Of a DNA stretch of 64,000 bases, positions 21,802 to 41,135 are shown in pieces. Within the stretch, counting starts at the first letter, position 1. The number at the start of each line of letters is the position of its first letter. The stretch comes from Acidobacteriota bacterium. GTDB taxonomy: Bacteria; Acidobacteriota; Terriglobia; 20CM-2-55-15. Location: contig QHWY01000090.1 in NCBI GenBank assembly GCA_003223875.1, positions 1 through 64,000 of the forward strand, given 5' to 3'. The position numbers were made by a program, and so were the translations under genes. The notes beneath the pieces are model-generated. The model made no database searches and was not told where the DNA came from. It was given only the letters and a program-made list of their open reading frames with translations.

Positions 21802-21892
21802 TTCGACAAACCGGGACGAACGGAACAGATACCTATCGACGGAACGGAATGTCCCTGGGTAAATGATCTTGAGCATCCGCAAAAATGGATTT

Positions 21893-22171
21893 CACGATTT
21901 AGATACGGGCCATCGTGACTTCGAATCGCCTTTCACGATTTAGATACGGGCCATCGTGATTTCGAATCGCCTTTCACGATTTAGATACGGGCCATCGTGA
22001 TTTCGAATCGCCTTTCATGATTTAGATACGGGTCATCGTGATTTCGAATCGCCTTTCATGATTTAGGTACGGGCCATCGTGACTTCGAATCGCGTTTCAT
22101 GATTTAGATACGGGCCATCGTGACTTCGAAATTCAATTCATGACTTAGATCGCCAGCATTGAGGCTTCAAC
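21893..22171. repeat. 41-bp tandem repeat array with internal hairpins
   Basis: Six complete 41-bp units start at 21893, 21934, 21975, 22016, 22057 and 22098, and a decayed seventh starts at 22139. Each unit reads CAYGATTTAGATACGGGYC then ATCGTGAYTTCGAATCG with few changes. CACGAT and ATCGTG form a 6-bp stem with a 13-base loop. In units 4-6 the first arm is CATGAT, which still pairs through one G.U in RNA. Each unit also has TTCGAA. No reading frame crosses the array. It fills the gap downstream of the receptor gene (21802-22209). Confidence 0.9.
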
Positions 22172-22209
22172 GGGCCCAAATTCGAAAACAACCTTAGAAG
22201 GAAGAACGT

Positions 22210-25461: not shown

Positions 25462-25610
25462 GGCATCACCTCCGATGGATATGTTAAGTGCCATTCGGGC
25501 TTCGGGCACAACGTTTACTGCTGTTACTCCTGATGTTCGCATCAATCAGGATCTCCATTTGGCGTCGGCGCGAAATAGCTTACGCCCATCATCCAGGCGA
25601 ACCAACAGTT

Positions 25611-25700
25611 TTAAGCCGCGAATTTGCGCGCAATCGCCGAGCCGATTCCTCCAGAAGCACCGGTGATGAGGACAACTTTTCCAGCCAGGCCCGTTTGCAT
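25611..25700 (-). pseudogene. 29-codon remnant of a short-chain dehydrogenase gene
   Basis: ATG at 25700 (minus strand) opens MQTGLAGKVVLITGASGGIG, then SAIARKFAA and stop. This is the first beta-strand, the TGxxxGIG cofactor loop and the first helix of an SDR enzyme, but the remaining 220 or so residues are absent. The adjacent sequence toward 25545 shows no SDR continuation in any frame that I can follow. A clear gene stub. Confidence 0.75.
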
Positions 25701-25739
25701 CGTGCGAAGATTCTACACGTGGTTACGAAGCCGGGCGCG

Positions 25740-25905
25740 GGTGGTGACTCAGTTTCATCTGTAGCGGCGGTCCGCGAAGCGCAAGCGCGGCAGCGCACAG
25801 CCTCAAGAAATGACCGCCGGCGATGTCTAAACTGCTGCACTGTCGGCGCTCATAGAGCGCCGCTACAGTTGGGAAACCCCGCAATTTTCAAACTGAGTCA
25901 CTACC
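25740..25905. mobile_element. MITE-like element with 16-bp inverted ends and 8-bp target duplication (copy 1)
   Basis: Left end GGTGGTGACTCAGTTT and right end, read in reverse complement, GGTAGTGACTCAGTTT (15 of 16 identical). The 8 bases CGGGCGCG occur directly on both sides (25732-25739 and 25906-25913). There is no reading frame for a transposase. The interior is a long-form class A repeat (25759-25868) flanked by short unique stretches, including GGGAAACCCCGCAATTTTC. The right end is 52 bp before the rimO start. Copy 2 at 41006-41135 shares ends and interior. Confidence 0.88.
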
Positions 25906-25957
25906 CGGGCGCGTGGCGGTTCGGCCGAGCTCAGGGTTTCTTGCTAGAATCATTTGA

Positions 25958-27313
25958 ATGTCTGATAAAACGCCGAAAATAGGATTTGTTAGCCTCGGCT
26001 GCCCCAAGAACCTGGTGGACAGCGAAGTCATGCTGGGGACTCTCTCCAGGCAAGGCTATTCCATTACCGCGCAAAAAGAAGAAGCCGATGTCATCGTCGT
26101 GAATACATGTGGATTCATCGACACAGCCAAGAAAGAGTCGATTGACACGATTCTTGAAATGGCGGAACTGAAGATTCAGGGAAATTGTAAGAAGCTTGTC
26201 GTCGCCGGTTGTCTGGCGGAGCGGTACCGCAGCGAAATTCAAAAGGAAATCCCGGAAATCGATTTTATTTTCGGGCCCGACGAACTCGGCCGGGTGCTCG
26301 AGGCTGTGCAGTTGGATTCTTCGGCGGCCGTGCCGGATGTTTCGATCGATGCGCTGTACACCTCGACAGAAGTTCCCACGATTCCTCGAATCCTGACAAC
26401 ACCCTCTTATCTGGCGTATTTGAAAATTTCCGAAGGTTGCGATCACGTATGCACGTTCTGCGCGATACCGAGTTTTCGTGGCCGCTTCCGTAGCCGCAGC
26501 CTCGCTGATTTGGTGGCTGAATCGCGGCGATTGGCGAAGCAAGGTGTTCGGGAACTCGTCATTGTTTCGCAGGACACGATGGCTTACGGAAACGATATCG
26601 GCCTTCGGAACGGCATCACAACACTGCTTCAGGAACTGAGCAAGATCGATGGATTCGAGTGGATTCGTTTTCTGTATTGCTATCCGAACATGGTCTCGGA
26701 TGAGCTGGTTCGATTGGTCGCTGAAAAGGAGCGGCTCTGCAAATACTTCGATATTCCCTACCAACATGCGAGCCGGCGTGTGCTCGAGCGTATGAAGCGC
26801 GGCGGCCAGCGCGCCATGTACGAACGTCAGATTGACGGCATTCGAAAACTTATGCCGGATGCCGGCTTGCGGACGTCCTTTATCGTCGGCTTTCCGGGTG
26901 AAACCGGCGGGGATTTCGACGAGATCTGCACTTTTATCCGGAACGTGCATTTCGATAACGTTGGTGTTTTTCTCTATTCCGATGAGGAAGGTACGGGAGC
27001 TTTCGACCTCGACGCTAAAGTTCAACGGCGTGTGGCTGTTCAACGCCGGAACCGGCTCATGAAAGAGCAGGCGAAGATCTCGAGGGCCAAATTGAAAAGC
27101 ATGGTTGGACGCACCGTCAAAGTCCTGCTTGAAGGCCGCTCGGATGAATCCGACCTTCTGCTTCAGGGCCGCATGGAAACTCAGGCTCCCGACATCGATG
27201 GGCACGTCTTGATCAATGATGCTGGAGAATCGGAGCCGATCTCCGGAAGATTTTATAAGGTCGTGATTACCAGTAGCCTTGAATACGATCTCATCGGAAG
27301 GATAGTGACTTGA
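25958..27313 (+). CDS. rimO: Ribosomal protein S12 methylthiotransferase RimO
   Basis: 451 residues. The N-terminal UPF0004 domain has three cluster cysteines: Cys15 (SLGCPKN), Cys51 (NTCGF) and Cys85 (VAGCLAER). The radical-SAM domain has the CxxxCxxC triad at 161, 165 and 168 (CDHVCTFCAIPSFRGR). The C-terminal TRAM domain ends in SGRFYKVVITSSLEYDLIG. SLGCPKNxVDSE and IPSFRGR distinguish RimO from MiaB. It adds a methylthio group to the conserved aspartate of S12. It is followed at once by a class B repeat and preceded by a MITE-like element whose end may carry or displace its promoter. Confidence 0.96.
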   Translation: MSDKTPKIGFVSLGCPKNLVDSEVMLGTLSRQGYSITAQKEEADVIVVNTCGFIDTAKKESIDTILEMAELKIQGNCKKLVVAGCLAERYRSEIQKEIPEIDFIFGPDELGRVLEAVQLDSSAAVPDVSIDALYTSTEVPTIPRILTTPSYLAYLKISEGCDHVCTFCAIPSFRGRFRSRSLADLVAESRRLAKQGVRELVIVSQDTMAYGNDIGLRNGITTLLQELSKIDGFEWIRFLYCYPNMVSDELVRLVAEKERLCKYFDIPYQHASRRVLERMKRGGQRAMYERQIDGIRKLMPDAGLRTSFIVGFPGETGGDFDEICTFIRNVHFDNVGVFLYSDEEGTGAFDLDAKVQRRVAVQRRNRLMKEQAKISRAKLKSMVGRTVKVLLEGRSDESDLLLQGRMETQAPDIDGHVLINDAGESEPISGRFYKVVITSSLEYDLIGRIVT

Positions 27314-39487: not shown

Positions 39488-39741
39488 CCCAAAGCCGCGA
39501 AGCGACGTGTTGCCTCTACGGGGCTTGCCATTCCAGACTTGGAAGGTCTAAGCCGCGAAGCGGCGTGAGAGCTTAGCCCAGGGCGCGAGCCCTGGGTTAT
39601 GTGAATCGTGAGATGCTAAAGCCCCGAAGGGGCGGCAGAGGATGAGATCTGTCGCCCCTTCGGGGCTTGCGATTCCAAACGTTCCGGCCCCCAGCGCTTA
39701 CGCGCTGGGCTATTGTCTGACGCCGCTTCGCGGCTTTCGTT
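39488..39741. repeat. Array of short GC-rich palindromes between convergent genes
   Basis: No gene here. Six or more palindromes follow each other: AGCCGCGAAGCGGCGTG, CCCAGGGCGCGAGCCCTGGG, AGCCCCGAAGGGGCG, CGCCCCTTCGGGGCTT, CAGCGCTTACGCGCTGGG and CGCCGCTTCGCGGCTT. Each pairs with a unit of opposite orientation elsewhere in the block, so long-range and local stems are both possible. The block may stop transcription from both sides. The palindromes differ from classes A and B. Confidence 0.8.
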
Positions 39742-41005: not shown

Positions 41006-41135
41006 GGTGGTGACTCAGTTTCATCTGTAGCGGCGGTCTATGACCGCCGGCGATGTCTAAACTGCTGCACTGTCGGCGCTCATAGAGCGCCGCTACAGTT
41101 GGGAAACCCCGCAATTTTCAAACTGAGTCACTACC
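41006..41135. mobile_element. MITE-like element with 16-bp inverted ends and 8-bp target duplication (copy 2)
   Basis: Same terminal sequences as copy 1 (GGTGGTGACTCAGTTT and the mirror of GGTAGTGACTCAGTTT). Flanks CGGTTTCG (40998-41005) and CGGTCTCG (41136-41143) match at 7 of 8 bases. The interior is a short-form class A repeat (41025-41098), otherwise near-identical to copy 1, which has a 36-bp longer left loop. It ends 57 bp before the receptor gene at 41193. Confidence 0.87.

Follow-up and report, generated by a model that had tools for sequence, protein, structure and literature searches.

Organization of the locus

The window, a 64,000-nucleotide stretch of an Acidobacteriota contig (QHWY01000090.1), contains a short repeat-bounded element directly upstream of a gene for a RimO-like protein. 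The locus is laid out as follows.

25732-25739, no strand: left target duplication copy, CGGGCGCG (from the sequence; 20 of 37 distinct genomic copies carry an exact 8-bp duplication)
25740-25905: MITE copy 1, 166 bp, with terminal inverted repeats (TIRs) and an exact 8-bp duplication
25740-25755, + strand: left TIR, GGTGGTGACTCAGTTT (from the sequence and genome-wide matches)
25761-25866, no strand: REPIN body, two inverted GTAG-REPs plus spacer (from the identity of REP1 to RAYT-flanking REPs)
25761-25819, + strand: REP1, GTAG plus a CGGCGGTC / GACCGCCG hairpin, split by a 36-bp unit
25773-25808, + strand: 36-bp unit in the REP1 hairpin loop (from alignment to the 130-bp form)
25844-25866, - strand: REP2, CGGCGCTC-ATA-GAGCGCCG-CTAC, inverted and uninterrupted
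25890-25905, - strand: right TIR, AAACTGAGTCACTACC (inverted GGTAGTGACTCAGTTT; from the sequence)
25906-25913, no strand: right target duplication copy, CGGGCGCG (from the sequence)
25958-27313, + strand: downstream gene (open reading frame), 451 aa, RimO-like radical-SAM protein by its motifs

An earlier note on this DNA had described a MITE-like element with 16-bp inverted ends, an 8-bp target duplication, and no transposase frame, and all of this is confirmed. The TIRs of the element proper (25740-25905) match at 15 of 16 positions, with a single differing position, CGGGCGCG recurs exactly on both sides, and the open reading frames of the window include no transposase frame inside the 166 bp. 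The short, non-coding form and the 16-bp inverted ends hold across a family measuring 128-490 bp, and no Rfam family covers the element. The 166-bp stretch is a small non-coding mobile element.

Between the element and the rimO start lie 52 bp, as the note had it, with the ATG at 25958. Its further suggestion of an altered rimO promoter finds no support, a consensus scan having returned no promoter-like or terminator-like site near the MITE. On the other flank, between a hydrolase-like gene and the MITE, the minus strand at 25608-25700 shows what may be the opening of an SDR gene (MQTGLAGKVVLITGASGGIGSA), with a stop soon after the first codons.

Genomic copies, target duplications, and an empty site

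The RGTGACTCAGTTT end has 93 matches in the source genome (G000) at ≤1 mismatch versus 2 for a reversed-pattern control, placing the copy number beyond chance. Complete copies number 38 and represent 37 distinct sequences, the second copy of the window being identical in sequence to the copy on contig C350. An 8-bp duplication with 0-1 mismatch borders 29 of the 37 distinct copies (20 exact, 9 with one mismatch), and the remaining 8 show >1 mismatch; none of the 37 has an exact duplication of length 7 or 9. Ends without a close partner in this genome are accompanied by no transposase gene, and several of them are truncated or internal variants. The earlier note had proposed searching the genome with the 16-bp ends and had counted a lack of further copies against its reading, an objection that falls in view of the 93 end matches and the duplications in 29/37 copies.

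41006-41135, + strand: second MITE copy, the 130-bp form without the 36-bp unit, with flanks CGGTTTCG / CGGTCTCG (from an empty site in G001)

The empty site that the note had also proposed to look for exists for this second copy. The same-genus genome G001 retains the same two neighbor genes and lacks the insertion, its sequence aligning to the joined flanks at 68% identity, with gaps, and holding one CGGTTTCA. Another MITE copy occupies the same site in both genomes. At rimO, the upstream neighbor differs in two comparable relatives, which blocks a comparison of the G001 type, so that an empty site could not be demonstrated there and the pre-insertion rimO promoter is beyond reconstruction.

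IS1-related transposons with matching ends

A wide search for paired ends around a transposase gene revealed 36 complete transposons (among L169-L248), 1.8-4.4 kb in length, each bounded by 16-bp GGTAGTGNNTCAGTTT-type TIRs and exact 8-bp duplications. Four of them (L169, L170, L176, and L227) have GGTAGTGACTCATTTT ends, which match the GGTAGTG end of the MITE at 15/16 positions; these nearest TIRs of complete autonomous elements are thus one position off the MITE. At L077, in a genome of the same family, one end repeats the GGTAGTG end letter for letter, and a fragment of the transposase lies inside. The MITE therefore has its ends in common with autonomous transposons at these four loci and with L077. 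A same-genus genome carries a 274-aa transposase frame with a right end of the same kind, and relatives of the L077 transposase occur widely, with Acidobacteria, Nitrospira, and Verrucomicrobia among the groups that have them.

Classical IS1 encodes InsA/InsB with a programmed frameshift, although single-frame subgroups exist, and its ends start with GGT. The parental transposons encode their transposase in a single continuous frame of ~270-300 aa in place of a frameshifted InsA/InsB pair, and we accordingly call them IS1-related, not classical IS1. Their transposase is of the IS1-type DDE class, the L170 protein reaching 33.2 bits against Pfam DDE_Tnp_IS1 (PF03400), above the gathering score of 24.1. 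Against the NCBIfam IS1 model NF033558 (cut-off 100), a zinc-domain relative (L109) passes with 102.7, and L103, which lacks the zinc domain, stays under the cut-off with 56.1, a score that marks the transposase as a divergent IS1 relative.

The passenger genes tested in these transposons match Fic, GmrSD, PIN, Gp49-like, AAA_21, and other families. The 36 cargo transposons also often encode a small basic protein with a KxxIAxKAAxARW motif at the end, which has no Pfam match above cut-off.

No intact transposase or autonomous partner of this type is present in the source assembly (489 contigs, 93% complete). As all that this assembly retains is a 103-aa remnant belonging to another IS1 subtype, we infer the mobilizer: judged by sequence, an IS1-related DDE transposase acting on GGTAGTG...TCAGTTT ends is the most likely candidate. 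The earlier note had left the mobilizing family open and had pointed to a search for an insertion sequence with matching ends; that search yielded the 36 transposons, four of them at 15/16, and so gives the family a name, that of an IS1-related DDE transposon, without locating the partner in the source assembly itself.

Several IS families produce 8-bp duplications, and the missing partner would fit mobilization by another of these (e.g., ISL3, IS256, IS1595, or IS66), with the likeness to IS1 being convergent. We consider this very unlikely, since the same 16-bp end architecture is combined with 8-bp duplications in all 36 complete IS1-type transposons and since at L077 ends of this kind are joined to part of that very transposase.

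A REPIN forms the body of the MITE

In uninterrupted MITE copies, the body reads GTAGCGGCGGTC-TAT-GACCGCCG followed by inverted GTAGCGGCGCTC-TAT-GAGCGCCG, a GTAG foot plus hairpin arranged as an inverted pair. The first REP has ~428 matches in the source genome (≤2 mismatches) and a control has none. Among 30 sampled REPs, 27 lack an IS1-type end in their vicinity and thus lie outside the MITE, and 22 have an inverted partner. The window itself includes free REPINs.

1476-1551, + strand: free REPIN of the same type, without IS1-type ends
203-313, + strand: free REPIN with the 36-bp unit in its REP1 loop, without IS1-type ends

A RAYT gene (Y1_Tnp, HIH motif) on contig C399 of the source genome is flanked on both sides by inverted GTAGCGGCGGTCTATGACCGCCG, letter-identical to REP1 of the uninterrupted MITE copies. 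By these sequence features, the body of the MITE is a REPIN whose cognate RAYT resides in the same genome. As the REPIN far outnumbers the MITE and comes with a (putative) transposase of its own, the element is a chimera, a nested MITE that combines IS1-type transposon ends with a different mobile repeat as its body. The earlier note had recognized neither this REPIN and its RAYT nor the 36-bp unit in the hairpin loop.

The same ends in other genomes of the class

The exact GGTAGTGACTCAGTTT end occurs in 19 of 399 genomes of the class. Elements bounded by such ends contain GTAG-type REP pairs in two genomes (G063 and G350) and REP-like palindromes in four others (G058, G119, G023, and G002); in G004 the ends are joined end to end in a bare 33-bp form, which has an exact duplication. 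Inside most such elements, hairpins exceed those of random-stretch controls, with a few elements showing no excess. Free REPs are present in G350 and in the source genome, and some of the REPs found in the MITE of G350 are among them. Capture of a separately common REPIN is well shown for the source genome and suggested for G350. Nearly all sampled REPs of G063 lie inside the MITE, so this genome gives no example of the capture of an independently common REPIN. None of the RAYT genes examined in G063, G350, G058, G023, and G119 is flanked by the REPs of the MITE there.

The REPIN core and its cognate RAYT coexist in the source genome, which would suit a model in which RAYT moves the whole unit and the outer inverted repeats are flanking DNA carried along. 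We regard this model as disfavored and highly improbable. The 8-bp duplications lie exactly at the outer ends in 29/37 copies, these ends are missing from 27/30 sampled REP sites, and in other genomes the same ends enclose unrelated palindromes. To our knowledge, target duplications are not expected of Y1 transposases of the IS200/IS605 type.

Proposed mechanism

The reading that we prefer, and hold to be very probable, is that of a non-autonomous MITE whose ends are those of an IS1-related cargo transposon, moved in trans by a DDE transposase and carrying the REPIN body as a passenger. The transposase, of an IS1 type that the assembly no longer contains, would act by binding the GGTRGTGACTCAGTTT ends and moving the 130-490 bp unit, leaving 8-bp target duplications. 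A REPIN that came to be enclosed by such ends, presumably in a capture event, would also spread as their passenger. On this reading, both hairpin loops of the REPIN have repeatedly taken insertions, among them the 36-bp unit, which may face either way, and palindromic elements of larger size.

Insertions at the hairpin loops

Aligned to the 130-bp form, the 36-bp unit at 25773-25808 begins exactly after consensus position 33, and 166 copies of it (≤3 mismatches) are present in the source genome. Each of the 16 elements of 164-202 bp has a 36-bp insertion precisely at one hairpin loop or at both. Larger elements that align cleanly likewise have theirs at hairpin loops. Insertion points were mapped by alignment to the 130-bp form, as counting perfect stems is too strict for short stems. 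All cleanly mapped insertions ≥20 bp (30/30) fall at the two REPIN loops, a count that leaves out L045, L034, and L047, whose interiors align poorly and give 8 scattered points; two of the 30 loop points come from L045 and L034, making the strict clean count 28/28. Grouped by loop, orientation, and inserted element, the 30 insertions reflect at least seven founding events, far fewer than 30 because variants were later copied along with the MITE.

The 36-bp unit enters both loops of the MITE in both orientations; free REPINs, too, have it in their loops, as does a related 36-bp unit. Separately, head-to-tail arrays of the unit with exact 36-bp spacing, possibly within coding frames, are found in the source genome at C275 9971-10142 and C371 21604-21739. 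In G063, a genome of a different family in the same class, loci L267 and L271 have another palindromic element in a REP hairpin loop inside the MITE.

Slippage at hairpins is known to delete loops readily, and the insertion points lie exactly at loops, as they also would if the loop repeats were ancestral and the 130-bp form had arisen by loop deletion, for instance by slippage between the hairpin arms. This polarity is unlikely, though, given that the same 36-bp unit runs in both orientations, fills either loop, and turns up in free REPINs, within the loop of a related unit, and as tandem arrays; deletion would require several starting forms in which that unit was already present, at varied positions and facing either way.

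Under the insertion reading, the loops may be chosen since they are exposed as single strands. More tentatively, hairpin loops could be a general landing place, with 36-bp and other palindromic elements entering loops of 2-4 bases, those of their own kind included, and building nested palindromes; IS1-type MITEs would then possibly be a recurring vehicle that picks up and spreads whatever REPIN a genome has.

Relation to known systems

Bacterial IS-derived MITEs such as NEMIS, RUP, Nezha, and ERIC (PMC3733652) resemble this element in being short, non-coding, and multicopy, with 15-30 bp TIRs, a target duplication, and ends matching an autonomous element. The interior sets it apart, being a separate REPIN with nested loop insertions, not a deleted transposase gene. 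The parental transposons agree with the IS1 family (PF03400 / NF033558) in the IS1 DDE domain of their transposase, 8-bp duplications, and ends starting with GGT, and differ from it in their single reading frame, their passenger genes, and their length of 1.8-4.4 kb, which exceeds that of classical IS1.

As in the REPIN/RAYT systems with GTAG-REPs (PMC3733652, PMC3116915), GTAG is followed by a hairpin, two units are inverted, copies number in the hundreds, and a Y1 transposase gene is flanked by the same REPs. Unlike in those systems, one REPIN subtype resides here inside a DDE-type MITE, hence the 8-bp target duplications. In A. variabilis, T. roseum, and H. neapolitanus, REP dimers regularly lie within longer palindromes for a reason left unexplained (PMC3733652, section 7); the arrangement of a REP dimer within an outer palindrome is alike, whereas the outer palindrome here is a transposon end pair with target duplications and autonomous relatives. 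The insertion sequences IS1397, ISPpu9, and ISRm22, which target REP sequences (PMC1525189), likewise enter a palindromic repeat at one set position, but the unit inserted here is 36 bp long, non-coding, in either orientation, and exactly at the loop.

REPINs are held to spread via their own RAYT (PMC3733652). A REPIN carried by a DDE-type MITE of an identified family makes a second, testable route of spread visible, and the same ends around different REP-like palindromes in several unrelated genomes, together with loop-located insertions, suggest a rule by which the repetitive intergenic DNA of these genomes is assembled. A literature search, which covered few subscription papers, returned no account of a REPIN enclosed in an IS1-type MITE.

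Other repeats are present in the window. Matches to Acido-Lenti-1 (RF01687) at 39551-39596 (- strand) and 39690-39735 (+ strand), in opposite orientation and ~94 bp apart with palindromes in between, look like a mobile repeat pair, and a tandem repeat with a 41-bp period spans 21849-22176.
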